DNA of 32,871 bases from an uncultured Clostridia bacterium. Lineage in GTDB: Bacteria > Bacillota > Clostridia > Christensenellales > Aristaeellaceae. Below, in pieces: positions 2,215-31,538 of this stretch. Position numbers and translations under genes: made by a program. Position 1 is the first letter of the stretch. Each line of letters begins with the position of its first letter. The stretch is taken from NCBI GenBank assembly GCA_946615495.1, contig CAMOHY010000002.1, positions 1-32,871 on the forward strand, given 5' to 3'. The notes under the pieces are model-generated. The model was not told the origin of the DNA. It did no database searches and saw only the letters and a list, made by a program, of their open reading frames with translations.

Positions 2215-2238
2215 AATGATCGTTACTGTCCTTTTTTG

Positions 2239-2388
2239 TTATGCTTGCGTAAAGAAAGGCGCCATTTCGTTCCGGCCGGCATCCTGGTGCGGCCCGAAAA
2301 TGAGCAGCGCCGTGCCCAGGGCCAGCATGAGAATAAAAAGTAATAGAATGAGCCGGTATACCGGATGTTTTTCTTTTTTCGCGCTCAT
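2239..2388 (-). CDS. Small single-TM protein, 49 aa, unknown function
   Basis: MSAKKEKHPVYRLILLLFILMLALGTALLIFGPHQDAGRNEMAPFFTQA with RBS AAAAGGAGGGAAAA immediately upstream of the internal Met. Confidence 0.6.
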   Translation of the reverse strand: MSAKKEKHPVYRLILLLFILMLALGTALLIFGPHQDAGRNEMAPFFTQA

Positions 2389-2548
2389 TTTTCCCTCCTT
2401 TTGCCGCGGACTCATTCCGCCGGCAGCTGGGAAATCATCTGGCCCACCCTGGCCAGGCACCGGAACAGACGGAAGGGGCCTTCAGCAGCGCTTTTTCCAT
2501 TGCGGCGAAGCCTCCTTCATGGATATCAAACGGGCAATGAACGAAACA

Positions 2549-3349: not shown

Positions 3350-3413
3350 ATATTTCCCCTTGCTTCAGTCGTGTTATGAATACCGGTATTCGTCCCCTCA
3401 AAGCGGCTGCCGC

Positions 3414-4862: not shown

Positions 4863-4956
4863 CGACAGTCAACTCCTTCCCAGCGGAATATCCATTTACT
4901 ATTCGACGGGCAGCGGAAAAAATCCTGCATAGGCGCTTTGGAAGCGCCAAAACCGC

Positions 4957-5910: not shown

Positions 5911-6014
5911 GGGTAACACCCCTCCAGTGCAGATAGGAAAACCGTTCCCCGCGTAGAAGCGGGGGCCGGAAAACTGGCTTCCAGCCCCCGAAAGGGATTT
6001 GGGTTATGCCGGCG

Positions 6015-9000
6015 TCAGGCGTTGCCGCCCTCGCCGTTATCGTCATAAAGGTCCTTGTTCCGTTCCGTGCGGCGCACGCGCTTGCGCGCAGGAGCCTGGG
6101 GAGCCTCCGGCTCCGCCGGGAAATCCTCCAGGTCCAGCTTGGCTACCTTGATATTCAGGTTGAGCCGCTGGGCGTTGGGGTCCACGGGCGCGGGCTTGAA
6201 GGCCTGGGTATCGCTGGCCAGGGCGTCCATATCCTCCTTGGTCATTCCATTGAACAGCGATTGATTGCCGTACACCTGGGTCTGCTGCAAGGGCTGATAG
6301 ACGTTATTCTGCCGCCGGGGCTGATAGGCCTGGGTTTCCTGCCGCACAGGCTGGAAGGCCTGGGTTTCGCCCGCGCCGGGCTGAGCCTGCGGGGGTTGCT
6401 GGGCAGGCTGCGCAGTCCTGGGCCGGTACACGCCGGTGTTTTGGATGTTTGCGGCGGCGGTGGGCCGGGGCGACGCGCCCTGGGGCGGCATGAACGGCGC
6501 GGACTGGTTGGGATAGGACGCGCGGTTCACGCCCTGATTGGGATTATTCTGAGCCGCCCGCATATGAGGCTGCTGCGCCGCCGCGCTGCGGGCCTGACGC
6601 GCCTGCTGGGCGCGCTGGGCCTGACGCCGCTTTTCGGTTTGCTTGCGCACGGTGTAAGCGTAGTAAGCGCCGCCGCCGCCCAGCACGGCCAATCCCAGCA
6701 GCACCCACGGCCAGGGCGAGCCGCCCTGCTGCACGTTGGTTTCCGGCTGAACGGGATTATCCTGGGGCCCCACGGGAGCAATTTCCGGGGTGGGGCTGGG
6801 GGTCGCAGTCGGAACGGGCGTTTCGGTGGGCAGGCGTTCCGGGTCGGGCGTAGGCGTTACGAAGGGATTAAAGGGCTCGTAGGACGCGCTGAGCGCCGGG
6901 TTTTGCCACACCGTCTGGTTGTAATCCTCCACCGGCTGAATCTGGCTGCTGGTAGCGCCGGAGGAGGTGTTGTTGCTGTTTGCGTTTAAGTACTCGCTGC
7001 TCTGCAGGAAGGTGGAAAGCTCGCCCAGCGGCAGCACACGGAAGTAATCGCTGCGGATATAGCCTTCGTTGCCGCCCTGGCTCACATGGTACCAGGTGCC
7101 CTCGTCGTTGGTGACGGTGCCCAGCACCAGGGCGAACGCGTAATTATCCAGCAGGCGGATGGCGTTGTCCTTTTTCGTGGTAGGCTCGGACCGCAGGTTC
7201 ACCCGGCCGCTGTTGCTCTGCACATGGCCGTAGCTGCTCAGGCTTTCCTGGGTCAAGGGTTCGGGCGTGGGGGCGGGAGAGGGCGTAGGCGTGCCGCCCA
7301 TCAGGCTTTCTTCGTAGGCGGCCACCTCCTCCTGGCTCATCATGCGCAGCTGGTCCTGGCGGATATAGCCCCACATGCCGTTATACTGCACCAAATGCCA
7401 GGCCGCGTTGCCCGCGTACTGCTGGCCGCGCACATTGGCCACGGCCATATAGGGAAGCAGCATGATGATTTCGCCGTTGGTATCCGGGAAATTGCGCATG
7501 GGCACGCCTTCGCCCAAGGTCATAGCGTAGCCCTCGGCCTGCTCCGGCACGGCGGTGGCGGTGGCAGCCGGCGTGGTCTGAATCTGCTCCAGATAGGGCC
7601 GGGCCTCCTCGCTGGTGATGGACTGGATGGAGGATTGCAGGATAAAGCCCAAATTGCCGCTGCTCACGGACTGAACGAAGGCCCAGGGCACATTGTCCAC
7701 ATAGGTCTGGCTCTGCACGAAAAGCAGGGAATCGGGAGGCAGCATTTCCAAAATGGTATCGTCGGTCTGGCTCACGCCGGTGCGCAAGGCCGCCTGGCCG
7801 CTGGTGAGGGCATAGCCCTTATAGGGCAGGGGCGTTTCGGTGGGCGCCTCGGTGGGAATCAGGGTGGGTTCGGCGGTGGGCTCCTGGGTGGGCTCCTGCG
7901 TAGGTTCCGCAGTGGGCTCCTGGGTGGGCTCCTGGGTGGGTTCCGCAGTGGGCGCCTGGGTGGCGGCGGGCTGCTGGGTGGGCATGGGCGAGGAAAGCTG
8001 CGCCTGAATTTCTTCGCTTTCCGCTTCGCTGGCCACCTCCACGTAATCGGCCATCAGGAAGCCGTCGGTGCCGCTGACGCGGACGGAGTACCACTTTTCG
8101 CCGTTGATGGTCTGGGAGGAGAAAACCCATACGCGGGTGTTCTTCTTCAATTCGGAAATTCTCTCCCCGCTGCGGTCCGCGCTCCTGCGGAAATTCACCG
8201 CCGCGGTGGTCTTGGCCCAGCGGTCAATGGGCGCGCCGTCGGGAATGGCGGTGGGCGCTGCCGTGGGCTCCTGGGTGGGGGCCATGGTGTAGCCGAACAG
8301 GGCGGCCAATTCCGCTTCATTCAGGAAGCGCACCACGGATTCGTTCATGTAGCCCATCACGCCGTTGATCTCCACGGCGTACCATACCTTGCCGTCGCTG
8401 ACCAGCTGGCCCAGGGCGTGGCCCAGGTCGCCGCTGTTGGCCATGCCCACGATGTTGTCCTCCGCCGTGGTGGGGGTGGAGCGCACGCGCACGCCGGTGC
8501 CGGTGGGATAGAAATAGGCGTCCAGGGCCGTTTCAAAGGTAGGAGGCTGGGGAGCGGGGGTGGCGGTGGCCAGGGATACATACCGGAACACCACGGTATC
8601 CGGGGTCAGCTGGCCGTTTTCATTCAGGAACACATTGGCGCTTCCGCTGCCCTCCAGGGTATAGTTTTCTTCCAGGTTATCGGGCCGGGCGTCGATGGTG
8701 TTGCTGCCCACATAGCACAAATACTGCTGGGGAGAGGCCACCTCCCGCCCGGTTTGGGCGTCCTGATAGAGAACGGTTACATAGCCGTTCACTTCGTTGC
8801 GGAATTTGAACACCACTTCGGCGGGCTCGGCGTTGCCGTTGCTGTCCACCGTCACATCCACTTCCGCCTCGGAGGCCAATTCATATCCCAGGGTAGAATC
8901 CACCTGGTCCCAATCCAGCCGCACGGTGTTCTTCTGGCCCTCCACGCAGGTGGCCGTATAGGAATAGAAAGCTTCGCCGTCCGGATTCACATATTTTACG

Positions 9001-11768: not shown

Positions 11769-11820
11769 AAATAACGATGCCTCCTTCGGAATCCATCGAA
11801 TAATGGTGAAAACTATTTCA

Positions 11821-11849
11821 ATTGTATTACAAAACTTTAACAATGTCAA
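11821..11849 (-). promoter_or_regulatory. Strong sigma-A promoter for the giant MucBP/SH3 gene
   Basis: TTGACA (11849-11844), 17-nt spacer, TACAAT (11826-11821) on the - strand, about 50 nt upstream of the start. Confidence 0.8.
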
Positions 11850-16330: not shown

Positions 16331-17545
16331 TCAACGGGCTTCATTGTTCTTTGCCACGCGCTGGGCCCAAATCAGCACCAGAGTGCCGGCCAAACTTAAA
16401 ACGGCCCAGGAAACGAACACCGCCGCCCAGCCGAACTGGTCCGACAGGAACCCGGCGAAGGCGCCGGAAAAGGAGCTGCCCACGTAGATCATGGCATCCA
16501 ACAGGCCCGCCGCCAAGGCTACCCGGTTGAGGGAGCTGTACTGCATGGGCATGATGGTGGTAAGCAGCGGGTTCAGGCCGTAGGTCATGGCGGAGATGCC
16601 CACCAGCACGATCACGAAGGGCCACAGGCTGCCAAGCGTCGCGGGCAGCGCCGCGCACAGCACGGTGCAAACGGCATACAGGATAATAGAGGAAAGATAG
16701 GAATTGTTTCCGCTGCGCTTATAGGCAGCTTGGCCCAGGCGGATGCCCAGGAAGTTGACGGCGGGGATAATGAGGATGATGCCCACGGCGCTGCTCAGAT
16801 CAATGCCCTGGGTGTCCATCAGCAGCTTGGCGGCCCAATTGGTGATGCCGTCCCGCACGTAGCCGTTGGCAATACAGGTAATCAGCAGCAGGATCAAATT
16901 GGTGCGAAGCAGCAGATGGCTGATCGGGGCCTGCCTCTCGGAAGCTGCTCCTTCCATGGGCTGCGCATCATAATCCACCGGCATCCGCTTCATAAAAAGG
17001 ATGCAAGGAACGGCAATTCCCGCCGTGACCAAGCCGGACACCAGGAACGCGATCCGCCAGGAAAGCAGGCTGGTGAGCAGCCCCGACAGCGCCCAGGCGA
17101 TCAAGTAGCCAAAGATCAGGGTCAGGGACATAAAGAAGGCGGCGTGATCCCGCACCTTGTCCCTGAAATGCACAGCCAGAATGCGCACGATGGGGGTCCA
17201 GATCAGGGACTGCAAAAGCCCGTTCACGAACCACAGCGCCACCAGCAGCGGGAAATAGGGGCAGAAGGAGAACAGCACGTTCACCAGGGCGGACCCCAGC
17301 AGGCCAATGAGCATGAGCCGGGGCCCCGGCTGACGGTCCGCCAGCAGCCCGGACAATACCTGGCCCGCCGCATAGGGAATGGCAAAGAAGGTGGGCAGCA
17401 GGCCCACCTGGGCGGTGCTGACGGAAAAGGTTTTGGCGATGGCGTCCAGGGAGGGCGACAGATTGCAGCGGGAAATATACGCCGCCGTATACGCGAGGAA
17501 GCAGGCAATCAGCAGGGACAATTCGGTTTTGGTGTAGCGTTTCAT
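16331..17545 (-). CDS. MFS transporter (sugar-phosphate/OPA-like)
   Basis: MKRYTKTELSLLIACFLAYTAAYISRCNLSPSLDAIAKTFSVSTAQVGLLPTFFAIPYAAGQVLSGLLADRQPGPRLMLIG..., many TM helices. Confidence 0.85.
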   Translation of the reverse strand: MKRYTKTELSLLIACFLAYTAAYISRCNLSPSLDAIAKTFSVSTAQVGLLPTFFAIPYAAGQVLSGLLADRQPGPRLMLIGLLGSALVNVLFSFCPYFPLLVALWFVNGLLQSLIWTPIVRILAVHFRDKVRDHAAFFMSLTLIFGYLIAWALSGLLTSLLSWRIAFLVSGLVTAGIAVPCILFMKRMPVDYDAQPMEGAASERQAPISHLLLRTNLILLLITCIANGYVRDGITNWAAKLLMDTQGIDLSSAVGIILIIPAVNFLGIRLGQAAYKRSGNNSYLSSIILYAVCTVLCAALPATLGSLWPFVIVLVGISAMTYGLNPLLTTIMPMQYSSLNRVALAAGLLDAMIYVGSSFSGAFAGFLSDQFGWAAVFVSWAVLSLAGTLVLIWAQRVAKNNEAR

Positions 17546-17581
17546 AGCGTTTGAATCCTTTTTTATTGGTAAAGGGAGGCT

Positions 17582-19117
17582 TTACTCCATATAATACACC
17601 TTCAGCTTTGCCATATCTTCGTCGCTGAGCGCCCTGCGGTACAGGCACACATCGTCCAGAACGCCGGGAAGCTGCTGGCCGGGGCCCTGCGCGTCGTCCC
17701 GGCCCAGGAAAAGCCGGGGAGTTTGCCCGTTCAAAAACAGCTGTTTTCCAGGAAGCTGCTGGCGGAGGAACGGCTCAAAATTCATGGAGAATCCTGTGGC
17801 GCCGGTTTCCGCATCATAGGATATTGCCAGGAACATCCACACCCCTTCCCGCTGGGGCGGCAGGCCGATTTCCATGTTTTTGGTTTTTTCCGCGTCCAGG
17901 GTTCTTACCGTCAGCACCAAGTGGTCTTCTCCCGTCGCTACCACATAGAGCCAGGACGCCGGATTTTCCGGGCAATGGACCCCCATAATGGGCATCCTGC
18001 CTTCCACCGCGTTCAGCTTGACCCATGCGGTAAGGGAAAAGCTTTCGCTTGCCGCCGGACAGGGCATGGACAGCGATCCATCGTCAAAGCGCATCCCGTG
18101 GCCCCGCACGCCGTCCACCAGGTACAATTTGCCCTGCTGTTCCGCGCCCTCCGGCAAAGCATCGATGCACTCAAAGGGCAGATAGAGCGCGGGCTCCAGC
18201 CCCGAAAGCTGCTGCAAAAAGCGTCCCGTTTCCGGCTTGGGCTGGGGCTCCTTGCGTTCCAAGGGAAGTCCCTGTGGCCGGGGCAGATTTTCCGGCACGT
18301 CGGCAAACAAGCCCCCAGGCACCCGGCTGTTCCAGGTATCGGGAATTTCCAGGCCCAGAGCATGCAGGATGGCCGGGGCGGTGTCCCGCACCAGCATATC
18401 ATGCAGCTCCACGTGCTGCGCGCCGCCGCCCGCGGCATAAAAGCACACATATTTTTCCGCGTCGCTGTCCCCGCCGTGGCTGCCCCGTCCATTGGCATCC
18501 GGCGGGGTGCCGCCGTGATCGGCTTCCACAATCATCATCGTGTCGTCCAGCCAGCCCCGTTTTTCTATGGCGGATACGATTTTGCCGATGTACTCGTCGT
18601 TTTTACTAATCATTGCCAGGTGTTCGGGCGTGCCGTAGCCGTGGGCGTGGCCCTCGTGATCCACGCTGTCAAAATGAAAATACATCAAAGTGAAATCATG
18701 ATGGTTGATATATTCGATGGCGGGCTCCACCAAGTCACAGTCCTTGGCGTGATATTTATAAACACCCAAGCCATCCTCGATGATGCCGAAGTTCACGTTG
18801 TTCCAGTCGCAAAAGGAGGCCAATTCCGCTTTGGGCCGATGCTCCCGGACCACCCGGAACACGGAGGGATAGGGCGAATCCACCGGATAGGGCTTTTTGC
18901 CCGTTGCCCAGTTGGTCAGCCCGTGGCGGCGGCAGTCCACGCCGTGCAGCATGCTGCCCCAGCACTCGGCGCTGATGGTGGGCATTTCCGTCAGGGTCCG
19001 GCGGCTGACGGCTCCCTTTTTGAAAATGCGGTCTATGTTGGGGGTAGGCGTCTGTTCAAAGAATGTGCCCGCCCCATCCACGCCAAACAATACAACCCGT
19101 TTCGCCCAAGCTTTCAT
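17582..19117 (-). CDS. Alkaline-phosphatase-superfamily phosphodiesterase/sulfatase-like enzyme with C-terminal LamG-like domain, cytoplasmic
   Basis: VVLFGVDGAGTFFEQTPTPNIDRI...EMPTISAECWGSMLHG...YFHFDSVDHEGHAHGYGT...MMIVEADHGGTPPDANGRGSHGG; C-terminus SFSLTAWVKLNAVEG...LFLGRDDAQGPGQQLPGVLDDVCLYRRALSDEDMAKL. Confidence 0.82.
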   Translation of the reverse strand: MKAWAKRVVLFGVDGAGTFFEQTPTPNIDRIFKKGAVSRRTLTEMPTISAECWGSMLHGVDCRRHGLTNWATGKKPYPVDSPYPSVFRVVREHRPKAELASFCDWNNVNFGIIEDGLGVYKYHAKDCDLVEPAIEYINHHDFTLMYFHFDSVDHEGHAHGYGTPEHLAMISKNDEYIGKIVSAIEKRGWLDDTMMIVEADHGGTPPDANGRGSHGGDSDAEKYVCFYAAGGGAQHVELHDMLVRDTAPAILHALGLEIPDTWNSRVPGGLFADVPENLPRPQGLPLERKEPQPKPETGRFLQQLSGLEPALYLPFECIDALPEGAEQQGKLYLVDGVRGHGMRFDDGSLSMPCPAASESFSLTAWVKLNAVEGRMPIMGVHCPENPASWLYVVATGEDHLVLTVRTLDAEKTKNMEIGLPPQREGVWMFLAISYDAETGATGFSMNFEPFLRQQLPGKQLFLNGQTPRLFLGRDDAQGPGQQLPGVLDDVCLYRRALSDEDMAKLKVYYME

Positions 19118-19153
19118 CGCTTCATATCTCCTGTCTTTCCATATTGAAACATT

Positions 19154-19858
19154 TCATTCCCGGCCCATTGCCTTTCGGATTCCAAGCGCCAGGGACGCGC
19201 TGCGGGTGGTGATATTCAAAAGGTCCTTTGCCATGAATTCCTTGAGCGGCGCTTCCTCGTTGAGCGTCCACAGGGACAGGGCCGCCTTCCGCTCGCGCAT
19301 TTTTTCAATCAATTCATCCGGCATATATTTATACGGGGCGTTCAGCGCTTCCGCTCCCAGCCCGCGAAGGCGGGCTGAGACCGCGTCCGCGTTTGCCAGC
19401 AAAAAGGCGGTTTGGCTCCATCGATCCGGCGGCTCTTTTTTCGACAAATCCCGCACCAATTCCTCCGAATTCAGAAAAATACGGCTGCGGCGGGCAATTT
19501 CCGGTTTTTCCGCCAGCAAAGCCGTATCCACCGAGCCGGAAAAAATCAGCTGGTCCGGCCCAATACCGCATTTTTCCGCCAGCTTCAGCGTGGGCAGCAG
19601 GGCCCCGTATTCCTTCAAATCGCAGTTGACGGCAATGCCGCTCTTTTGAATCAGCCCAAACGCGTCCTCCACCGGCGTCAAGCCGGAAAAAAGCGCCGGC
19701 AGATCGTGGGTAAGCCACAATCTGCCCTGCGCGTCCATACGAATATCGATTTCCACGCAGTCCGCCCCCAGGGCAACGCCCGTTTCGATGGACGCGATGG
19801 AGTTATCCGGCGTACCTTCGCAGCCGGAGTGGGCGGTAATCATGATCTTTCGGCTCAT
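19154..19858 (-). CDS. Glycerophosphodiester phosphodiesterase
   Basis: MSRKIMITAHSGCEGTPDNSIASIETGVALGADCVEIDIRMDAQGRLWLTHD...; start trimmed to the Met after GGGGAGGAAAGCGC. Confidence 0.85.
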   Translation of the reverse strand: MSRKIMITAHSGCEGTPDNSIASIETGVALGADCVEIDIRMDAQGRLWLTHDLPALFSGLTPVEDAFGLIQKSGIAVNCDLKEYGALLPTLKLAEKCGIGPDQLIFSGSVDTALLAEKPEIARRSRIFLNSEELVRDLSKKEPPDRWSQTAFLLANADAVSARLRGLGAEALNAPYKYMPDELIEKMRERKAALSLWTLNEEAPLKEFMAKDLLNITTRSASLALGIRKAMGRE

Positions 19859-19902
19859 GCGCTTTCCTCCCCTATCGATCGTTTTTTGGAATCTTTTTAT
19901 CC

Positions 19903-20183
19903 CTTGACAGCGCCGGTCATGGCGCTTTCCTCCACCTCCGGGGGTCTTCTGCTCCACGAAGGTTTTAATCAGAATCACGTAATAAGAGGAAATCAGGGAG
20001 GGCAGGATATACACCAGGAAGTTATTCAGCAGCCCGTAGAACCGGAAAATCAGGTGCGTGGGAATCATGCCGCCCGCCACATAGCCGGTAATAATCAGCA
20101 TGCGGTACAGGAATTTCCGGCGGGGCATTTCCTCCTTGGAAAAAAGATGCCCCAGCAGCATGCAGCACAGCACCGTGCCCGTT
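19903..20183 (-). pseudogene. Decayed carbohydrate ABC transporter permease (CUT1) with frameshift and internal deletion
   Basis: VLCCMLLGHLFSKEEMPRRKFLYRMLIITGYVAGGMIPTHLIFRFYGLLNNFLVYILPSLISSYYVILIKTFVEQ, then a shift to another frame reading RPPEVEESA-MTGAVKG*. PPEVEESA is an EAA-loop start and MTGAVKG* a typical C-terminus of this family. Confidence 0.7.
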
Positions 20184-20444: not shown

Positions 20445-21200
20445 TTAATTTAACTGATACTGCAGCGGCTGCAAAATATCCGCGATCAAACGCGCGTCGC
20501 GGATGATGGTTTCCGGGTCGAACCGGGGGGAGGGACCGGACACGCTGACCGCGGCGATGACCTGGCCGCTGGTGCTGAACACGGGCACCGCCACGCAGCG
20601 GATGCCGAATTCATGCTCCATGTTGTCCACGGCATAGCCGTTCTGGCGCACCTCCTCCATCTGCTGGCGCAGGGCGGCGGCGTCGGTGAGGGTGCAGCCG
20701 GTAAAGGCCCGCTTGGGCGCGGCCAGCACGGCCTCCATTTCTTCCGGCGGCAGGTGGGCCAGCATGGCTTTGCCCAGGCCCGTGCAGTACAAGGGGGCCC
20801 GCTCGCCCAAAATATTGCGGGTCTGCTGCTGCATGGAGGGGTAGGCAGCCTCGATATACAGCACCTCCCGCTCATCCAGGATGCCGAAATAGCACACCTC
20901 CTTGGTTTCGCGGGCGATGCGGGTGAGATAGGGCAGGAACATATCCCGCAGCCCATGGTGGCTGGACACGATGTAGGCCAGGTGCAGCACCTTGAGCCCC
21001 AGGGCGTACTTGCTGTTTTCCGGATTTTTGATGAGATACCCGCATCTTTGGAAGGTGCTCAGGATGTTGTACACCGTGCTTTTTTGAAGGCCCAGCATCC
21101 GGGATATTTCAGAAATGCCCAGTTCGGGCTTATCCACGGAAAAGCATTCCAGCACGGAAAGCGCCTTGGCCAGAGATTTTACTGTGCTGTTTTCCGTCAT
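20445..21200 (-). CDS. IclR family transcriptional regulator
   Basis: MTENSTVKSLAKALSVLECFSVDKPELGISEISRMLGLQKSTVYNILSTFQRCGYLIKNPENSKYALGLKVLHLA...GERAPLYCTGLGKAMLAHLP. Confidence 0.95.
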   Translation of the reverse strand: MTENSTVKSLAKALSVLECFSVDKPELGISEISRMLGLQKSTVYNILSTFQRCGYLIKNPENSKYALGLKVLHLAYIVSSHHGLRDMFLPYLTRIARETKEVCYFGILDEREVLYIEAAYPSMQQQTRNILGERAPLYCTGLGKAMLAHLPPEEMEAVLAAPKRAFTGCTLTDAAALRQQMEEVRQNGYAVDNMEHEFGIRCVAVPVFSTSGQVIAAVSVSGPSPRFDPETIIRDARLIADILQPLQYQLN

Positions 21201-21236: not shown

Positions 21237-22157
21237 TTATTTCAGCAGCGTTTCGCGCAGGAAATCCGCCGCCCGCTGCATCTGGCGCACCTCCTCCTGG
21301 AAGGTGGGCGTAAGCCCTTCGGCGGGCGACACGCGGGTGAACGGGCTGGTAAAGTTCTTTTCGATCTGCCACTGATGATACTTGGCGTTGGCGGGGTAAT
21401 ACTGCCGCTCAATCTGGGAAAACGCCGTCAAAAAGCCCTGGAGGGTTTCCGCCTTTTGGGAATCGGTATCCCAGCAGGCCGTAAGAGCGCGGTACAGGTC
21501 CATATGAAAATTCATCATCACGCCGGAAAAGCCCGCCGCCCCCGCCCGCAGGGAGGAAAGGAGGGTGGTGGTGTTGGCGTTGTACAGGCGGAAGGAGGTG
21601 CCGCGGAGCACGTCCAGCCGCTTTTGAATAAGCTCGATATCGCAGCAAGTGTCCTTCATGAAGGCGAAGCGCCCTGTTCCGGCGCACCATTCCAGCTCCT
21701 CCAAGGTTATAAGCCGCTTGAAGGGATAGGGGCATTCATAAAAGCCCAGGGGCATATCCTGGGGCGCCGCCTCCAGAATGCGCCGCACCATGGGCAGCAT
21801 GGAAGCCTGCTGCCGCCCGGCAGGCACCAGGCGGTTGGTAATCAGGATCAGGGCGTCCGGCCCGGCGGAGGCGATCTCCTTCAGCTCCGCAATCTGGTCC
21901 TCCGCGCCCCAGGCCGTATGGCCGGAAGCGATCACCGGCACATGGGCATGGCTTTTTACGAACCGCACCAGCTCCACCCGCTCCTTGAGGCTCAGGAAAA
22001 AAATTTCGCTGGATTGGCAGGCGGCAAAAAGCCCCTCCGCCCCGTTTTCCTCATACCAGGCGATCAGCCTTTCCAAAGAAGGATAATCGATTTCTCCCTC
22101 CTGGGTGAAGGGAGTAAGCATCACGGGCCAAAGCCCTTTTTCGCTGTGGGTGGACAT
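21237..22157 (-). CDS. Dihydrodipicolinate synthase / N-acetylneuraminate lyase family protein
   Basis: MSTHSEKGLWPVMLTPFTQEGEIDYPSLERLIAWYEENGAEGLFAACQSSEIFFLSLKERVELVRFVKSHA...PLGFYECPYPFKRLI...FAFMKDTCCDIELIQKRL. Confidence 0.88.
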   Translation of the reverse strand: MSTHSEKGLWPVMLTPFTQEGEIDYPSLERLIAWYEENGAEGLFAACQSSEIFFLSLKERVELVRFVKSHAHVPVIASGHTAWGAEDQIAELKEIASAGPDALILITNRLVPAGRQQASMLPMVRRILEAAPQDMPLGFYECPYPFKRLITLEELEWCAGTGRFAFMKDTCCDIELIQKRLDVLRGTSFRLYNANTTTLLSSLRAGAAGFSGVMMNFHMDLYRALTACWDTDSQKAETLQGFLTAFSQIERQYYPANAKYHQWQIEKNFTSPFTRVSPAEGLTPTFQEEVRQMQRAADFLRETLLK

Positions 22158-22197
22158 GGAGCATATCTCCTTCCGGGATATCAAAATTTTTGAAAAC

Positions 22198-22216
22198 CGT
22201 TCCGTAATACTGAACA
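22198..22216. promoter_or_regulatory. Candidate operator copy 1 (probably IclR)
   Basis: CGTTCCgtaatacTGAACA, immediately downstream of the -10 of the - strand promoter. Confidence 0.6.
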
Positions 22217-22222
22217 CATTTT

Positions 22223-22251
22223 ATAATATGCCATTCTTCATCGTCTGTCAA
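22223..22251 (-). promoter_or_regulatory. Sigma-A promoter for the DHDPS-like gene and iclR
   Basis: TTGACA (22251-22246), 17-nt spacer, TATTAT (22228-22223) on the - strand. Confidence 0.75.
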
Positions 22252-22291
22252 TAGGATTTCATTTATTTTTTTGCAAAATTTTTTGCCGGTA

Positions 22292-22321
22292 TTGACAAAT
22301 CTATCCCATCCATGATACAAT
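22292..22321 (+). promoter_or_regulatory. Sigma-A promoter for the catabolic/transport operon
   Basis: TTGACA (22292-22297), 18-nt spacer, TACAAT (22316-22321). Confidence 0.75.
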
Positions 22322-22328
22322 AATTGCG

Positions 22329-22355
22329 ATGAACGTCGTTCATTTATACTGAACG
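22329..22355. promoter_or_regulatory. Candidate operator copy 2 (probably IclR), three half-sites
   Basis: ATGAACGtCGTTCAtttatacTGAACG: contains a perfect 7-1-7 palindrome and CGTTCA-N7-TGAACG, 15/19 identical to copy 1. Confidence 0.6.
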
Positions 22356-22443: not shown

Positions 22444-23493
22444 ATGCTTGCATTGAAATCTCACCGCCTGATTATGGACCAGGAAATCACCGTGGCCTGC
22501 CACGCCTCCACCGTGCTGCCGCTGGAAAACGGCCATGTGCTGGTGGCCTGGTTTGGCGGCAGCCACGAACACAACGACGATGTGAGCATTTATTTGGCGG
22601 AAAAGGACGAAAAGGGCTTTGGCGCGCCCCGGCTCATGGCCTCCACCCTGGAGCCCCATTGGAACCCCGTCCTTTATCAGCACGCCGGCGGCCGCATCCA
22701 GCTTTTCTACAAGGTGGGCCGGGAAATCCGGGATTGGCGCACCTACACGCGGGAATCTGACGACCTGGGCAGAACCTGGACGCCCACCGCGGAGCTGGTT
22801 CCCGGCGATGTGAGCGGCGGCCGGGGCCCCGTGCGCAATAAGCCTATCCAATTAAAGAATGGCCGCATCCTCGCTCCCGCCTCCATTGAGCGGGGGCTGT
22901 GGGTGTGCTTTATGGATATTTCCGACGACGGCGGCAGGACCTGGAAGCGCTCCAACATCATCGAGGCCCAGGGCACCCATCATTTGGACGAAGGCCTGAA
23001 ATACTGGCAGGAAAAAATGCTCCAGGCTAAGCAAGCAGGCGCGCCCATGGACCGCAGCCAGCTTCCCCCCGAATACCGCCATGGCCGGGGCGTGATTCAG
23101 CCCACGCTGTGGGAGGATGAGGAAGGGGTGCACGCCCTGCTGCGCAGCGGCGAAGGCTTCATTTACCGCACCGATTCCGCCGACCAAGGGGACACTTGGT
23201 GCGAAGCCTACCCCATCCAGGTGCCCAATAATAACAGCGGCATCGATTTAACGCGCCTGGAGGACGGCACCCTGCTGCTGGCCTACAACCCCATCGGCCA
23301 AAGCTTCGGCCTGCGTTCGCCCATTTCTCTGGCCGCGTCGCGGGACAATGGGCGCGCCTGGGAAAAGCTGTGCGACCTGGAAACGGAGCCGGGCGAATTT
23401 TCCTATCCCGCTATCGTGTCCCGCGGCGGGAAGATATTCCTTACCTATACCTGGAAGCGGAAAAACATCGCCTATTGGGAATTTGAATGGTGA
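22444..23493 (+). CDS. BNR_2 sialidase-fold protein (exo-sialidase-like or related lyase/hydrolase), no signal peptide
   Basis: HASTVLPLENGHVLVAWFGGSHEHNDDVSIYLAEKDEKGFGAPRLM...SDDLGRTWTPT...SDDGGRTWKRSNII...SRDNGRAWEKL. Confidence 0.82.
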   Translation: MLALKSHRLIMDQEITVACHASTVLPLENGHVLVAWFGGSHEHNDDVSIYLAEKDEKGFGAPRLMASTLEPHWNPVLYQHAGGRIQLFYKVGREIRDWRTYTRESDDLGRTWTPTAELVPGDVSGGRGPVRNKPIQLKNGRILAPASIERGLWVCFMDISDDGGRTWKRSNIIEAQGTHHLDEGLKYWQEKMLQAKQAGAPMDRSQLPPEYRHGRGVIQPTLWEDEEGVHALLRSGEGFIYRTDSADQGDTWCEAYPIQVPNNNSGIDLTRLEDGTLLLAYNPIGQSFGLRSPISLAASRDNGRAWEKLCDLETEPGEFSYPAIVSRGGKIFLTYTWKRKNIAYWEFEW

Positions 23494-23519
23494 CAGGACG
23501 CAAGGAGAGGAGAAAAGCT

Positions 23520-24473
23520 ATGTCCACGGTCAAGAAAGCCGCTGTGAAAAGAGGCTCGCTGGGCGAACGCATCGTTCGGGCCATCCGGCGGGACAAGTGG
23601 CTGTTTCTCATCATGCTGCTGCCCACAGCCTACTACCTTTTGTTCTGCTATTATCCCATGTACGGCGTGGTGCTGGCGTTCAAGAATTTTAAGCCCAAGC
23701 TGGGCATCATCGGCAGCCCCTGGGCCAGCCAGAACGGCATGAAATATATCAACATGATTATTCGTGACCAATATTTCTGGCGGGTATTCTTTAACACCAT
23801 CATCCTGAACCTGCTCAACCTGGCCATCACCTTCCCCGCGCCCATCATCCTGGCGCTGCTGCTCAACGAGGTGGGCAGCAAATGGTACAAAAAAAGCGTG
23901 CAGACCATCACGTACCTGCCCCATTTTCTCTCCGCGGTGGTTATCGTGGGCATGCTCAACGACCTGTTCAATTCCACCGGCCTGGTGAACACCCTTATCA
24001 CCTCCATGGGCGGGGACAAGATTCCCTTCCTCACCTCGGCCAAGTGGTTCCGCCCGCTGTATATCGGCTCCAACCTGTGGCAGGGCGTGGGCTGGGATTC
24101 CATCATCTTCCTGGCCGCCCTGTCCAGCCTGGATATGGAATTGTACGAGGCCGCCCGCATCGACGGCGCCGGGCGCTGGAAGCAAACGCTGCATATCACC
24201 CTGCCCGGCATTCTGCCCACCATCGTCATCATGCTCATCCTGGCCATGGGCCGCATCATGAGCGTATCCTTCCAGAAAATCTGGCTGATGATGAACGGCG
24301 GCAACCAGCAGGTGGCGGATGTGATTTCCACCTACGTTTACCAGCGCGGCATCATCAATTCCGATTTCAGCTACGCCACGGGCGTGAACCTGTTCCAGTC
24401 CCTGGTTTCTCTCTTCTTTGTGCTCATTACCAACGCCATTTCCAAGCGGGCCACCGAAACGTCGCTGTGGTGA
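23520..24473 (+). CDS. Carbohydrate ABC transporter permease (LplB/UgpA-like)
   Basis: DKWLFLIMLLPTAYYLLFCYYPMYGVVLAFKNFKP...LYEAARIDGAGRWKQTLHITLPGILPTIVIMLILAMGRIMSVSFQKIWLM. Confidence 0.93.
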   Translation: MSTVKKAAVKRGSLGERIVRAIRRDKWLFLIMLLPTAYYLLFCYYPMYGVVLAFKNFKPKLGIIGSPWASQNGMKYINMIIRDQYFWRVFFNTIILNLLNLAITFPAPIILALLLNEVGSKWYKKSVQTITYLPHFLSAVVIVGMLNDLFNSTGLVNTLITSMGGDKIPFLTSAKWFRPLYIGSNLWQGVGWDSIIFLAALSSLDMELYEAARIDGAGRWKQTLHITLPGILPTIVIMLILAMGRIMSVSFQKIWLMMNGGNQQVADVISTYVYQRGIINSDFSYATGVNLFQSLVSLFFVLITNAISKRATETSLW

Positions 24474-24480
24474 GAGGAGG

Positions 24481-25413
24481 ATGAACAAAATGACAGCTCT
24501 TCCCCAGAAGCGCCCTTCGTCCCGCCCAACCGCCATTCGGGAGGGCGGAATCGCCAGAACGCTTTTCCAGGCGGTGAATTACTCCGTATTGTTCCTGCTC
24601 ATGCTCGTTACCCTGTATCCCTTGTATCTGACGGTTATCACCTCGCTGAGCAACGGCATGGACGTGATGCGCGGCGTGGTGCGCTGGCGCCCCGTAAACG
24701 CCACCCTGGCCACCTATAAGCAGATTTTCAAGGGCGACATCATGATCTATATGCGCAATTCCGTGTTTTACACGGTGGCGGGCACGCTGGTGAACATGGT
24801 GATGAGCTGCCTGTGCGCTTATCCCCTCACCCGGCGCACCTTCTGCGCCCGCAAGCTTTTTACCGCCATGGTAACGGTCACGCTGTTCTTTTCCGGCGGC
24901 ATGGTGCCCATGTACCTGACGGTGAAGCAGTTTGGCATGATGGATACCATCTGGGCCCTGATCCTGCCCGCCGCCATTTCCACCTATAATATGATTATCA
25001 TCCGCACCGCCTTTGCCTCCATTCCCGAATCGCTCATCGAATCGGCCCAGCTGGACGGCGCCAACGACCTGAAAATCCTATTCAGCATCGTCATTCCCCT
25101 GAGCAAAGCCACCCTGTCCACCATGGTGCTCTTTTACGCGGTGAGCCATTGGAATTCCTACTTTGACGCCATGATGTACATCCGCACCAAATCCCTTTAT
25201 CCGCTCCAGATTCACCTGCGCAACCTGCTGGTGGCGGGCGTGGCCAACGAGGATTTGGTGCAGGCCACGGGCACCGGCGAAGCCTTCGCCGTCACGGAAA
25301 GGACCATGCGGTCCGCCACCATCGTGGTATCCACCCTGCCCATCCTCATCGTGTATCCCTTCGTGCAGCGCTATTTCGTCACCGGGGTCATGATCGGCTC
25401 GGTCAAGGGATAA
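24481..25413 (+). CDS. Carbohydrate ABC transporter permease (LplC/UgpE-like)
   Basis: LYPLYLTVITSLSNG...FFSGGMVPMYLTVKQFGMMDTIWALILPAAISTYNMIIIRTAFASIPESLIESAQLDGANDLKILFSIVIPLSKATLSTMVLFYAVSHWNSYFDAMMYI...GVMIGSVKG. Confidence 0.94.
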   Translation: MNKMTALPQKRPSSRPTAIREGGIARTLFQAVNYSVLFLLMLVTLYPLYLTVITSLSNGMDVMRGVVRWRPVNATLATYKQIFKGDIMIYMRNSVFYTVAGTLVNMVMSCLCAYPLTRRTFCARKLFTAMVTVTLFFSGGMVPMYLTVKQFGMMDTIWALILPAAISTYNMIIIRTAFASIPESLIESAQLDGANDLKILFSIVIPLSKATLSTMVLFYAVSHWNSYFDAMMYIRTKSLYPLQIHLRNLLVAGVANEDLVQATGTGEAFAVTERTMRSATIVVSTLPILIVYPFVQRYFVTGVMIGSVKG

Positions 25414-25484
25414 AGCCCCGCTTCCCATCCTGTATTTTTCCGCGTCAAGGCGCGGATAAATGATAACAAAAAGGAGGAACCCCC

Positions 25485-27050
25485 ATGAAAAAGGCCTTGT
25501 CTATGCTGCTTGTGCTGTGCATGCTGCTTGCGGCGCTTCCCACTGCGCTGGCGGAGAATCCCTCCACCTGGCTGTGCGATACGCTGACGGAAATCACCAT
25601 CATGCGCGGCGAAAACGCCATGCAGCCCATCAAAACCGATACCCTGAAATTGCAGACCATTGAAGAATTGCTCAATGTGAAGCTGGTTGTGGAAGCGCCT
25701 CCCGCCGCCAGCTACAACGACCAGAAGAGCACCCGCATCGCCTCCGACGATATGCCGGACATCATGCTGGTGAGCACCTCCGACGTGCGCACCTATGCCC
25801 GCGACGATATGTTCGTCAACCTGTCCGAGCATCGGGACGAATTGCCCCACCTCTTTGCCCTGCTGGACGCCAACGAAAGCCTGGGCATGCTCACCGTGGA
25901 CGGCGATTTCTACAGCGCTCCCACCCTGCAGCGGGATAACCCCGACCTGCGCCGCTCCGGCAGCCTGCTGAACTTCCGCACGGACCTGCTGGCAAAGTAC
26001 GGCCTGGAAGTGCCCGCCACCTTTGAGGATTTGTATCAGGCCATGAAGACTATCAAGGAAAACGAGCCCGACATGGTGGGCCTGACCTGCCGCAGCGGGA
26101 CCCGCAAGTTCATGGACCGCGTGGCGTATCCTCTGGGCGCCGGCTCCGCCATGTACTATGACGCCGATCAGGGCGGCAAGTGGGTTTACGGCCCCGCCAG
26201 CGAAAACTTCAAGCTGGTGCTGGAATACCTGAACAAGCTCTATTCCGAAGGCCTGCTGGACGCCGACTACGCCACCAACTCCAAGGATCAGTGGGCTGAA
26301 AAGCTGTCCAACGGCACCGCCATGGCTACCATTGACAACGATGGCGTGGTGCGCAATTACAACGCCGCCCTGGCCGCCGTTGATCCCTCCTTCAAGCTGG
26401 AAGTGATCCCCGTTCCCGTCAACGCCCTGGGCGAACAGCGCATTGAATTCTACGATAAGAACTGGACCGACCAGAACTGGGTCATCGCCACCTCCAGCGA
26501 CAAGATCGACCTGTGCCTCAAGTTCCTGGATTGGTGCTATTCCGACGAAGGCGCCCTGACCAACGGCTACGGCAAGGAAGGCGTGTCCTACGACCTCGTG
26601 GACGGCAATCCCATCGTGAAGCCCGAACTGCTGGAGCAGTACGCCGCCAACGCCGCCAACGCTTCCTATGATATCCAGACCGCGCTGGGCGTAGGCCTCA
26701 ACGACGTATCCCCCTATGTGGACGCCGGCTGCCAGTACCAGATGGAAATCTACCTGATGGGCGATGAGGAAGCCCAGGCCGCCTACCGCGAAATGGTGGC
26801 CGGTATCGCCACCATGCCCGGCACCCGCGAGCCCGTTATCACCCCGCCCCTCACCGAAGAGCAGACCGAACGCTACAACGAACTGCTGCTCGCCGTTGAA
26901 AACCTGGTCTACCAGGAAGTGGACAAGTACATCACCGGTGAAGAGCCCCTGGAAAATTACGATAAGGTGATCGAGGCCGCCAAGGCCGCCGGCGCCACCG
27001 AAATGGAAGAAATCTACAACGCTGCCTGGAACGCTGCCCTGGGCAAGTAA
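25485..27050 (+). CDS. Extracellular sugar-binding protein (family 1 SBP)
   Basis: Signal peptide MKKALSMLLVLCMLLAALPTALA; DIMLVSTSDVRTYARDDMFVNLSEHRDELPHLFALLD...; sits directly after two permeases; RBS AAAAAGGAGGAACCCCC. Confidence 0.88.
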   Translation: MKKALSMLLVLCMLLAALPTALAENPSTWLCDTLTEITIMRGENAMQPIKTDTLKLQTIEELLNVKLVVEAPPAASYNDQKSTRIASDDMPDIMLVSTSDVRTYARDDMFVNLSEHRDELPHLFALLDANESLGMLTVDGDFYSAPTLQRDNPDLRRSGSLLNFRTDLLAKYGLEVPATFEDLYQAMKTIKENEPDMVGLTCRSGTRKFMDRVAYPLGAGSAMYYDADQGGKWVYGPASENFKLVLEYLNKLYSEGLLDADYATNSKDQWAEKLSNGTAMATIDNDGVVRNYNAALAAVDPSFKLEVIPVPVNALGEQRIEFYDKNWTDQNWVIATSSDKIDLCLKFLDWCYSDEGALTNGYGKEGVSYDLVDGNPIVKPELLEQYAANAANASYDIQTALGVGLNDVSPYVDAGCQYQMEIYLMGDEEAQAAYREMVAGIATMPGTREPVITPPLTEEQTERYNELLLAVENLVYQEVDKYITGEEPLENYDKVIEAAKAAGATEMEEIYNAAWNAALGK

Positions 27051-27245: not shown

Positions 27246-29750
27246 ATGGGTGAAAACCGTCATCTGCTGCCCTTCCTGTGGCTGCACGGGGAGGATGATG
27301 AAACGCTGCGCCGGGGCGTAAGGGAAATTGCCCAGTCCGGCTGCGGCGCGCTGTGCGCCGAATCCCGCACCCATCCGGATTTTCTGGGGCCCTCCTGGTG
27401 GCATGAAATGGGCGTGCTGCTGGACGCCTGCAAGGAATGGGGCATGAAATTTTATCTGCTGGACGACGTGCATTTTCCCTCCGGCACCGCCAACGGCGTG
27501 GCCGCCGGCACGCCCTGGCAGCGGATGATGATGAAGGAAACCCATGTGGACGTGAAGGGCCCCCGGAAGGGCGGGCGGCTGCTGGCGTGGCCCGATGGGA
27601 TGAAGGCCATGCCGGTGGCGGTGGTGGCCGGGCGCAAGCTTACAAGCGGCAACCGGGTGGAAAGCTTTGTGGACCTGGGCGGCTTTGCCGTTTCCGATTT
27701 GACGGACCTGACGGACCGGGTGCGGGACGGCCTGCTTGCCTGGGATGTGCCGGAGGGCGATTGGCGCGTTTTCCTGCTCACGGCGGAATACGTCAGCGAG
27801 CGCAACCCGCCCCAGCAGTTTTTAAATCCTCTTCTGCCCGACGCGGGCCGCCTGATGATTGAAACGGTGTACCAGCCCCACGCGGAGTTTTTCGGGGCCG
27901 AGGCGGGCAATACGTTTTTGGGCTTTTTCTCCGATGAGCCTGCCCTGCGGGCGGGCCGGGGCTCCCACGCCGTGCTGGGCGAATTTCCCCAATTGCCCAT
28001 TCCCTGGCGGCTGGATATGCCGGAAATTCTGTCGCAAAGGCTGGGGCAAAACGCCCGCGCCCTCCTGCCCGGCTTATGGTACGATATTGGGCGGGAAACG
28101 CACCGCGTCCGCTACGCCCTCATGGACACAGTGAGCGAGCTGTACGGCAAAAATTATTCCCAGCCCATCGGCGCCTGGTGCCGGGAGCGGGGCCTGGAAT
28201 ACATTGGCCATGTAATTGAGCAGAACAACGCCCACAGCCGCCTGGGCCAAGGCGCGGGCCACTTTTTCCGCGCCATCAGCGGGCAGACCATGGCGGGCAT
28301 GGACTTTGTGCTCCATGAGCTTAAACCGGAATTTTACGGCGGGCACCACGCCTGGCACTCCCAGGATTTTGAGGCGGAGGACGATTTTTTCCGCTTCATG
28401 CTGCCGCAGATGACCCTGTCCGCCGCCGCCCTGGACCCCAACAAGCGCGGCCGCGCCCTGTGCGAAATCTTCGGGGCCTACGGCTGGCAGGAGGACGTGG
28501 GCGAAATGCGGTATCTGGCCCATCTGCTTTTATCCAGGGGCATCAACTACTTTACGCCCCACGCCTTTTCCTTAAAGCCCGCCCCGGACCCGGATTCGCC
28601 CCCTCACTTTGGGGATATTCATCCGCTGGCGTTCTTTATCGCCCGGCTGTTTGGGCAAATGGAGCGCACGGCGGCCCTCATTGACGGCGGAAGCCACGCA
28701 GCCCCCGTGGGCGTGCTGTACTACGCCGAGGGCGAATGGGGCAGCGGCAGCGGCGTAATGAAGACCCAGCGCATCGTGCGCGCCTTGAACGAAAAGCAGA
28801 TGGAATGCGAAGTGGCGCCCATTGACCTGCTGGCGCCGGGGCGCTATGAGGCCCTGCTCATTCCCGCCTCCCCCCGGTGGCCCGAAAAGCTGTTTGAAAA
28901 GCTTTCGGCGCTTCGCGCCGGGGGCTGCCGCGTGGCCTTTGTGGACGCCCTTCCCTCCGGCTACTGCGACCGGGAAGGCGTGCCGCCCCAGGAATATGAG
29001 GTGGTGCCGCTGTCCGGCGCCGCCGCCTGGTGCGCTTCTATCGTGTCCCCGGCGGTTTCGCCGTTTTCGGACGCGCCGCTCATCCACGCCTATCCCTACG
29101 ATGGGCCAAAGGGCAGGCTGGTGCTGTTTTTTAACGAAAGCGACCGGGAAACGCTCTCCTTTTCCGGCCTGGTGCGGGGCGTTTCCTCCCCTGTGCTTTA
29201 CGATCCGGAGGCCGGCGACTGCTTCCTGCCGGAGGGAAAAGAAACGGCGGAGGGCTTTGCCCTCACCCTGACCCTGGACCCTGGGCAATTGCTAATTTTC
29301 TCCTCCCCCAACGCTTCCTGGCCCGCCGCCCGGCCCAAGGCCGCGCTCAAGCCGGGCGAAGCCCTGTCCCCCCGCTGGCGCGTTTCCTTCCCTCAGGACA
29401 GCGCCATGGCCGCCTTTGAAACGGACGCGCCCTTTGATTTAACCTCCCGCTGGCCCCGGTTTTCCGGCACTGCCCGGTATGAAGCGGAGGCGGACCTGCC
29501 CGCGGCGGAGGGGCTGTTGCTTGATCCCATGTACGGCGCGGTGCGCCTGTGGGTGGATGGAAGGGAAGCGGGCGTGCGCGTATCCCCGCCCTACCGTTTT
29601 CCCGTAACCATTCCCGCGGGGCGGCATCTGCTCCGCATCGAATGCACCAACGCCCCTGTTTTCCGCTGGCGGGACCCCTTGTCCGTTCACGGCTGGCTGC
29701 CGCCCACGGGCCTTACCGGCCCCATCCGCCTCATGCAAAGGGAGAAATGA
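27246..29750 (+). CDS. Large glycoside hydrolase, GH106 (alpha-L-rhamnosidase)-like, cytoplasmic
   Basis: CGALCAESRTHPDFLGPSWWHEMGVLLDACKEWGMKFYLLDDVHFPSGTANG...TFLGFFSDEPALRAG...GLEYIGHVIEQNNAHSRLGQGAGHFFRAISGQTMAGMDFVLHEL...YFTPHAFSLKPAPDPDSPPHF; RBS GGAGGTAACGCGTTT. Confidence 0.6.
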   Translation: MGENRHLLPFLWLHGEDDETLRRGVREIAQSGCGALCAESRTHPDFLGPSWWHEMGVLLDACKEWGMKFYLLDDVHFPSGTANGVAAGTPWQRMMMKETHVDVKGPRKGGRLLAWPDGMKAMPVAVVAGRKLTSGNRVESFVDLGGFAVSDLTDLTDRVRDGLLAWDVPEGDWRVFLLTAEYVSERNPPQQFLNPLLPDAGRLMIETVYQPHAEFFGAEAGNTFLGFFSDEPALRAGRGSHAVLGEFPQLPIPWRLDMPEILSQRLGQNARALLPGLWYDIGRETHRVRYALMDTVSELYGKNYSQPIGAWCRERGLEYIGHVIEQNNAHSRLGQGAGHFFRAISGQTMAGMDFVLHELKPEFYGGHHAWHSQDFEAEDDFFRFMLPQMTLSAAALDPNKRGRALCEIFGAYGWQEDVGEMRYLAHLLLSRGINYFTPHAFSLKPAPDPDSPPHFGDIHPLAFFIARLFGQMERTAALIDGGSHAAPVGVLYYAEGEWGSGSGVMKTQRIVRALNEKQMECEVAPIDLLAPGRYEALLIPASPRWPEKLFEKLSALRAGGCRVAFVDALPSGYCDREGVPPQEYEVVPLSGAAAWCASIVSPAVSPFSDAPLIHAYPYDGPKGRLVLFFNESDRETLSFSGLVRGVSSPVLYDPEAGDCFLPEGKETAEGFALTLTLDPGQLLIFSSPNASWPAARPKAALKPGEALSPRWRVSFPQDSAMAAFETDAPFDLTSRWPRFSGTARYEAEADLPAAEGLLLDPMYGAVRLWVDGREAGVRVSPPYRFPVTIPAGRHLLRIECTNAPVFRWRDPLSVHGWLPPTGLTGPIRLMQREK

Positions 29751-29753
29751 AGC

Positions 29754-31538
29754 ATGGAAGAAATCATTCGCGTCACCGACCGCCGCCGGGCGGACATTCG
29801 CTTTCAGGACGGCGCGCTGCCCCATCTGTGCGGCGTAAAAAGCTTCCAAATTATGCGGGCCAACCGGAAAATGCCGGAGGACGCCGAGGGCTTTGGCTGG
29901 ACCTATAACCACGCCGCCATGCTGTGCCACGCCTTCGGCCGCTTTTACTGCCAATTCCTTTCCAATCCGGTGAGCGAGCATGAAACGCCGGGCCACACCC
30001 TGCTGTGCGACAGCGAGGACGGAGCGCATTGGTCCCGTCCCCGCGTGCTGTTCCCGGAAATCGAAATCGACACCGCGCCTTATCTTGGCCCCCGCACGCC
30101 CCAGCTTCTGCCCCGGATGCTCACCGTGCCCCATCAGCGAATGGGCTTTTACATGGGGCGAAACGGCGTGCTGCTCACCCTGTCCTTTTACGGCCTGGTG
30201 CACGACCGGCATCAGAGCGCGCCCTGCGACGGCTGGGGCGTCGGCCGGGCAGCGCGCCGCATTTTCCCGGATGGCAGCCTGGGCGATATCTATTTCCTGC
30301 TCTATAATGAGCCCGCCGGCTTTACGGAAAAAAACGTGGACGCTTTCCCGCCCTATGAAAAAAGTCCGGACGGCGCCTTCGTGGACGCCTGCCGGGAGCT
30401 GCTTTCAAACGGCGCGGCCATGCGCCAAATGTACGAAGAGCAGCGGTTTGACAAAAAGCTGTTTCCCCGGCCCGGCGCCCAGGCCTTCTGCTTTTACACG
30501 GTGGAGGGGCAGCACATGGTGGGCGTTTACAAGCGAAGCCTGGCCTCCCTGTCCCACGACGGGGGCAAAACCTGGACCGACCCCGCCCCCCAGCCCTCCA
30601 TTCACACCATGACGGGCAAGGTGTGGGGCCAGCGCACCTCCGACGGGCGCTTTACCCTGATGTACAACCCCACCACCGACGGCCAGCACCGCTGGCCCAT
30701 CGCCGCCGTTACCGGGGAGGACGGGCATACCTTCTCCCATTTGTCCGCCGTCACCGGCGATATGAGCCCCCAGCGTTACGGCGGCATCGATAAAAACCTG
30801 GGCCCGCAGTACATGCGCGGCATTGCCGAGTGCAACCCCCAAACGCCGGATGGCGACGTATGGCTGGCCTACAGCAACAACAAAGAGGATATTTGGGTCA
30901 GCCGCATCCCGGTGCCGCTGAGTGCCGAGGGCTCGCGGGAGGGCAGCCTGGATTTGTCCTCCGGCTCCTTCCCCGCCGCGCTGGGCGTTTATTCTCCCGC
31001 CTGGGCCCCGGTGACGATGGAAAACGGCGCCGTAACGCTCCGGGACCGGGACCCCTACGACCGGGCCGCCGTCGAAGTGGGCGTGGGCCAGGCCGAAAGC
31101 GGCAGCGTACACGCCGCCCTGTCGGTGGACGCAGTGGCGGAATGCGGCAGCGTGACTCTGGAAATGCAGGACGACGCGGGCCGCACCCCCATTCAGCTCA
31201 TTTTCCGGCCGGACGGCAAAGTGTACCTGCGCAATGACGGCCGCATCGACCCCTGGCTTCCCTGGCGTTCCGGCGAAGTGATCCATCTGGACATTGCCTT
31301 CGACGCCGCGGCCTGCCGCACGGTTTTGACCCTGAACGGCGCAGAAAAAAAGCAGGCCTTTAACGCCAGCGTGAATGAAATCGCCCGGCTGCGCCTGCTC
31401 ACCAAGCAGCATATTCCCTGCCTTTCCACCCTGGATTCCTGCGGCAAATACGGCCAAAAGGATCAGGTGCTGCCCGGCTGCGAAGAAAAAACGGAAGAGA
31501 CCCGCGTCCGGCTGCTGGCGCTGTCCTGGAAAGGCTAA
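29754..31538 (+). CDS. Sialidase-fold (BNR/Asp-box) protein with C-terminal LamG-like region, no signal peptide
   Basis: Asp-box-like LLCDSEDGAHWSRP and SLASLSHDGGKTWTDP; WGQRTSDGRFTLMYNPTTDGQHRWPIAAVTGEDGHTFSHL; C-terminal beta-rich IQLIFRPDGKVYLRNDG...VLTLNGAEKKQAFNAS. Confidence 0.7.
   Translation: MEEIIRVTDRRRADIRFQDGALPHLCGVKSFQIMRANRKMPEDAEGFGWTYNHAAMLCHAFGRFYCQFLSNPVSEHETPGHTLLCDSEDGAHWSRPRVLFPEIEIDTAPYLGPRTPQLLPRMLTVPHQRMGFYMGRNGVLLTLSFYGLVHDRHQSAPCDGWGVGRAARRIFPDGSLGDIYFLLYNEPAGFTEKNVDAFPPYEKSPDGAFVDACRELLSNGAAMRQMYEEQRFDKKLFPRPGAQAFCFYTVEGQHMVGVYKRSLASLSHDGGKTWTDPAPQPSIHTMTGKVWGQRTSDGRFTLMYNPTTDGQHRWPIAAVTGEDGHTFSHLSAVTGDMSPQRYGGIDKNLGPQYMRGIAECNPQTPDGDVWLAYSNNKEDIWVSRIPVPLSAEGSREGSLDLSSGSFPAALGVYSPAWAPVTMENGAVTLRDRDPYDRAAVEVGVGQAESGSVHAALSVDAVAECGSVTLEMQDDAGRTPIQLIFRPDGKVYLRNDGRIDPWLPWRSGEVIHLDIAFDAAACRTVLTLNGAEKKQAFNASVNEIARLRLLTKQHIPCLSTLDSCGKYGQKDQVLPGCEEKTEETRVRLLALSWKG

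Follow-up and report, generated by a model that had tools for sequence, protein, structure and literature searches.

Two predicted three-box operators of an IclR-family regulator in the divergent promoter region of a sugar-acid-type locus from uncultured Clostridia

Two similar palindromic elements, one beside each of two divergent promoters, lie in a carbohydrate locus of an uncultured Clostridia bacterium, and the question that they raise is which regulator would read them and whether it would do so equally at both promoters. The window, that is, the whole stretch of 32,871 nucleotides that was analysed, carries an aldolase gene and an IclR-family gene on the minus strand and an uptake/hydrolase operon on the plus strand. 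The elements are predicted here to be operators of this IclR protein, which, when bound, would repress both promoters, more tightly at the transporter side; the probability given to this reading is about 0.88. The genes concerned are the following.

16331..20173, minus strand: GDPD-like protein, phosphodiesterase-like protein with a LamG domain and MFS transporter, putative members of the operon
20445..21200, minus strand: iclR, predicted regulator of both operators, with HTH_IclR and IclR_C domains and the recognition helix LQKSTVYNIL
21237..22157, minus strand: aldolase of the DHDPS/N-acetylneuraminate-lyase family, first gene of the minus operon, with its presumed ATG at 22157 behind AAGGAG
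22444..23493, plus strand: BNR_2 sialidase-like protein, first gene of the plus operon, with a 5' leader of about 116 nt
23487..27050, plus strand: two ABC permeases (23487-24473 and 24418-25413) and a solute-binding protein (25485-27050) for sugar uptake, arranged divergently in orthologues too
27246..31538, plus strand: weak GH106-like protein (27246-29750) and BT_1020-like protein (29754-31538), presumably co-transcribed

Direct reading of the intergenic region gave the 19-mers CGTTCCGTAATACTGAACA (22198-22216) and CGTTCATTTATACTGAACG (22337-22355), identical at 15 of 19 positions and both with a 6-7-6 layout, together with a 15-bp perfect palindrome, ATGAACGtCGTTCAT (22329-22343), in the plus copy, in full agreement with the preliminary description. 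That description had also given the plus copy alone a third half-site. The half-site is there, but its restriction to one copy does not hold: when the two regions are aligned, the minus copy carries a degenerate third box, TTGAAAA (22190-22196, TTGAAAAcCGTTCCG), at the same spacing as in the plus copy. The repeated unit is 27 bp long and comprises three boxes, nnGAAC-N3-GTTC-N9-GAACn. Both units have plus-strand orientation, are identical at 19 of 27 positions and are spaced 139 bp apart. Boxes A and C are separated by 20 bp, equal to two helical turns, with box B reversed in between, and the three GAAC-type boxes share one face of the helix. The elements and their promoters are as follows, the scores in bits being those of the matrix described below.

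22329..22355, plus strand: three-box operator of the transporter side, ATGAACGtCGTTCATttatacTGAACG, with a perfect A box; 31.6 bits
22331-22334 (A, GAAC), 22338-22341 (B, GTTC) and 22351-22354 (C, GAAC): boxes of the transporter side, at about +1 to +27 of the plus promoter
22190..22216, plus strand: three-box operator of the aldolase/iclR side, TTGAAAAcCGTTCCGtaatacTGAACA; 30.6 bits
22192-22195 (A, degenerate GAAA), 22199-22202 (B, GTTC) and 22212-22215 (C, GAAC): boxes of the aldolase/iclR side
22292..22321, plus strand: sigma-70-type promoter TTGACA-18-TACAAT of the BNR/ABC-transporter operon; the -10 ends 7 nt before the operator
22223..22251, minus strand: sigma-70-type promoter TTGACA-17-TATTAT of the aldolase-iclR operon; the -10 ends 6 nt before the operator

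Palindromes may arise by chance in AT-rich intergenic DNA, and the short pattern gives this explanation some room: CGTTC-N9-GAACG with up to two mismatches occurs 14 times in the window, no more often than chance predicts (13.3), its best matches being the two elements themselves, with 0 and 1 mismatch. The short palindrome is therefore unconvincing by itself, and the case rests on the longer unit and its conservation. A position weight matrix trained on 30 sites, all of them taken from 20 iclR loci outside the window, ranked these two sites first and second over the 33 kb scanned (31.6 and 30.6 bits). They are followed by their own reverse-overlapping readings, and the next non-overlapping place reaches 10.8 bits; the maximum in 100 simulated windows (first-order Markov) was 16.5 bits. 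When each locus was left out in turn, 52 sites above 20 bits were located in 27 orthologous loci. Forty-six of them, in 23 loci, lie within 450 bp upstream of the iclR or the aldolase gene and the remaining six within about 400 bp downstream of iclR; no site above 20 bits was present elsewhere in the 296 kb of orthologous loci, and 1.48 Mb of simulated DNA contained none. An origin by chance, already refuted by the orthologous loci and opposed by the simulations, has a practically negligible probability.

The 27 loci were retrieved with the IclR protein and cover identities from 84 to 39%. A site above 20 bits flanks iclR or the neighbouring operon in 23 of them; four (L016, L019, L020 and L021) are without a strong site, and in L016 the aldolase gene was matched only in part. 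Loss of the CGTTC/GAACG half-sites in orthologues had been named beforehand as the observation that would speak against an operator, and the comparison, once run, found these half-sites conserved. Most of the loci L007-L019 retain the aldolase-iclR pair with a divergent ABC/solute-binding operon, and the site accompanies iclR where the gene order has changed: the arrangement is divergent in Paenibacillus (L023) and co-directional in L024-L027 and L033, and the neighbours are others in L028-L032. In two loci the divergent operon opens with a gene (L007:3719-4849 and L008:3716-4792) whose product is unlike the BNR protein of the window (no tblastn match), yet the operator before it is conserved: the gene has been exchanged and the switch has stayed in place.

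A class-wide search of 391 genomes by pattern only, with the spacer WWTA, returned seven sites in five other genomes, and the reversed control pattern returned none. Five of the seven, in three genomes, adjoin an iclR. The G671 match (L038/L045) is located inside an open reading frame and was taken as chance. The site of G431 precedes a set of genes, YhcH-like and cytidylyltransferase genes among them, the only iclR of that genome being on another contig. There (L046, contig C113, 2930-5466) an operator of this type precedes genes for a 405-aa protein, a YhcH/YjgK protein and a cytidylyltransferase-family protein, possibly a second type of regulon for this IclR group. An order-wide search with the spacer AWTA, a form that does not cover the window's own site, found none in 396 genomes; the type is rare in the order. 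Among 29 genomes of the genus that were searched, an iclR match was obtained in two, this genome and one in which the identity is just 30%, and other Clostridia MAGs hold copies of iclR 65-84% identical with the same gene pair. The distribution of the locus is patchy, and its spread was possibly horizontal.

Three-box sites are familiar in the IclR family. Suvorova and Gelfand (2021) defined motifs of group 1, GTT-11-AAC being one of its subtypes, and of group 2, and for 32 orthologous groups (199 regulators) they predicted sites of three boxes in which both groups are combined, citing PcaU, PobR and HmgR; the GTT-11-AAC subtype is frequent in regulons for sugar acids and over-represented in Firmicutes (PMC8222616). 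The type of switch is thus already described. Boxes B and C have the group 1 spacing, GTT-N11-AAC, in both CGTTCATTTATACTGAACG and CGTTCCGTAATACTGAACA, and boxes A and B the group 2 spacing, AAC-N3-GTT, with the middle box shared, perfectly in the plus copy and with one mismatch (AAA for AAC) in the minus copy; conservation near orthologous regulator genes extends to the 23 of 27 loci given above. A fourth box D, paired with C at group 2 spacing, was rejected, no such box being conserved, as judged by eye, in the flanks of the aligned sites. The boxes alternate in direction as in the sites of the survey, but their core is GAAC, preceded by T or, in a sister clade, by A, and not GRAAC/GRAMC. 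PcaU and PobR of Acinetobacter and HmgR of Pseudomonas, also of the IclR family, likewise combine a palindrome with an external direct half-site; however, their core is GTTCG-N5-CGMAC, their operons degrade aromatic compounds, and here there are two full sites, each at +1 to +27 of its promoter. KdgR, the 2-keto-3-deoxygluconate repressor of Enterobacteria, resembles the present case in family and in the sugar-acid type of locus, whereas its sites are two-box A/T-rich palindromes in the grouping of PMC8222616 and the window protein scores below the KdgR cut-off.

The linked protein, of 251 aa, belongs to the IclR family by its matches to PF09339 (4e-15) and PF01614 (2e-45), with 1mkm and 8eju as PDB relatives. 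The best-scoring specific model, TIGR02431 (pcaR_pcaU; PcaR/PcaU/PobR), gives 186.1 bits, below its cut-off of 284.75, and the KdgR model NF011671 gives 156 bits against a cut-off of 275, so that the protein is a member of neither. In the assembly, which is 66% complete, it is the only match to PF01614 (IclR_C). The box pattern, with at most one mismatch over the 12 box positions, occurs there at five places. Two are these operators; the others are C1:12933, inside an open reading frame, C73:7000, between convergent reading-frame ends and nearly identical at C126 and C237, and C177:952. No further operator of a wider regulon was found in this assembly. Across the loci the base before GAAC is T with the recognition helix KST and A with KSN (13:3 versus 0:10; Fisher 1e-4), a value that overstates the association because it reflects one or two changes on the tree; locus L042 departs from the rule, and the co-variation should be taken as consistent support and not as strong proof.

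An operator of another, unlinked regulator, for example of the LacI or GntR type, with the proximity of iclR reflecting shared regulation only, would agree with the G431 site on a different contig from its iclR, and the incomplete assembly could be missing such a gene. It is nevertheless very improbable, since the site tracks iclR through varied gene contexts, both published IclR spacings fit and the helix co-varies with the site. The earlier proposal of an IclR operator gains from the conserved half-sites, the linkage to iclR through rearrangements, the pattern-only search and the helix co-variation. Both elements are very probably, as far as sequence can tell, operators of the linked IclR (20445-21200).

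How the bound protein would act is suggested by the position of the sites. Both promoters, and an element just downstream of each -10, are as first described, with gaps of 6-7 nt; the hexamers are TTGACA at 22251..22246 and TATTAT at 22228..22223 on the minus strand, and TTGACA at 22292-22297 and TACAAT at 22316-22321 on the plus strand. The aldolase/iclR-side operator, like that of the transporter side, covers about +1 to +27 of its promoter, its C box being closest to the -10. On the transporter side TTGACA is perfect in 11 of 12 orthologous promoters (12 of 13 with the window), and in 10 of these orthologues a gap of 5-10 nt separates the end of the -10 from the operator; on the aldolase side the placement is equivalent in 10 of 11 orthologous copies, with TTGACA perfect in 11 of 12 when the window is counted. 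The exceptions are L014, where neither side has a recognisable promoter, and L019, with a longer gap of 17 nt. Locus L014 has near-identical three-box sites (4784-4818 and 4991-5017) 199 bp apart with all boxes intact, without a recognisable sigma-70 promoter before them, and its transporter is downstream of iclR, a different gene order. Looping of the DNA between paired sites is not supported, the spacings of 139 to 216 bp showing no constant helical phase across loci.

Positions +1 to +27 are the classic place of a repressor, and sites that begin 6-7 nt past the predicted -10 would overlap the start, as expected for a repressor that regulates itself. Occlusion or blocking of RNA polymerase is hence the best reading of operators so placed: bound IclR would most likely block the polymerase at both promoters and keep both the aldolase-iclR operon, to which its own gene belongs, and the divergent uptake/hydrolase operon repressed until it is released by an inducer, probably one of the sugar acids of the pathway. 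Binding, repression, induction and the difference in strength are predicted from sequence, conservation, position, linkage and co-variation. The main rival is a dual role like that of PcaU, in which the protein would activate the catabolic operon with inducer and repress it without, the third box being needed for activation. In its favour, pcaR_pcaU is the NCBIfam model to which the protein comes closest (186 bits, below cut-off), and PcaU binding needs a third box (PMC8222616). Both operators, however, are downstream of the -10 and over the predicted start, and the near-consensus hexamers at both promoters would make an activator unnecessary; a dual role is accordingly judged unlikely.

If IclR is a repressor at both promoters, the two sites may still differ in strength. 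On the transporter side 10 of 12 copies have GAAC as their box A, versus one of 12 copies on the aldolase/iclR side, some of the latter having been placed from weaker matches. Box C is perfect in every copy on both sides, and box B in 8 of 12 on the aldolase/iclR side. The A-box match is higher on the transporter side in nine of ten informative loci (sign test p = 0.02, a value that ignores relatedness). The rearranged loci show no uniform pattern, though A is kept in most. The degeneracy of A in 11 of 12 aldolase/iclR-side copies, set against C perfect in 12 of 12 and B in 8 of 12, would suit a functional unit formed by the 19-bp palindrome (B and C) alone with an incidental A box, but this is rather unlikely in view of the GAAC kept in 10 of 12 transporter-side copies and of its retention in most rearranged loci. 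The different occupancy anticipated on the plus side is favoured by this difference between sides, which suggests that transport is more tightly controlled than iclR; an intact A box would mean tighter repression at the transporter side than at the autoregulated one. More tentatively, and with odds somewhat below even, the third box could serve as a promoter-specific gain setting, a three-box site for transport and effectively a two-box site for the regulator's own operon, possibly with two modes of dimer assembly and with promoters that open at different inducer levels.

The genes point to a class of substrate. The best PDB match of the aldolase is N-acetylneuraminate lyase (2e-13). The protein at 29754-31538 (Pfam BT_1020-like) matches residues 28-569, the N-terminal part, of PDB 5MQR, a BT_1020-like beta propeller with a sialidase-like CBM (8e-114); inspection of the protein by eye showed no obvious signal peptide. 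The substrates of BT_1020 are side chains of rhamnogalacturonan-II bearing the 2-keto-3-deoxy acid Dha, and the protein may mark a rhamnogalacturonan-II-type use of sugar acids. In this polysaccharide, Kdo and Dha occur in chains C and D together with a terminal rhamnose or arabinose (PMC12282258). The locus may plausibly serve to import and degrade oligosaccharides that contain 2-keto-3-deoxy acids, and one of these acids may be the inducer. An Rfam scan of the window matched no RNA element, hence no known riboswitch is present in the leaders. Elsewhere in the window, at 2216-11567, plus-strand reading frames of 387, 502, 291, 327 and 1493 aa, all without a Pfam match, are overlapped on the minus strand by one of 1944 aa (6015-11849); they could be unrecognised genes or unreal frames.

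These results provide an undescribed sugar-acid locus of uncultured gut and rumen Clostridia with a predicted operator, regulator and local regulon, and add a well-conserved family to the predicted three-box sites. The function of the third box was left by the 2021 survey to experiment, by footprinting and SPR (PMC8222616). An intact and a decayed third box paired in one intergenic region form a clean natural system for that function and, if the box does set the gain of each promoter, the alternative-dimerisation proposal of 2021 (PMC8222616) would become directly testable at a single locus.
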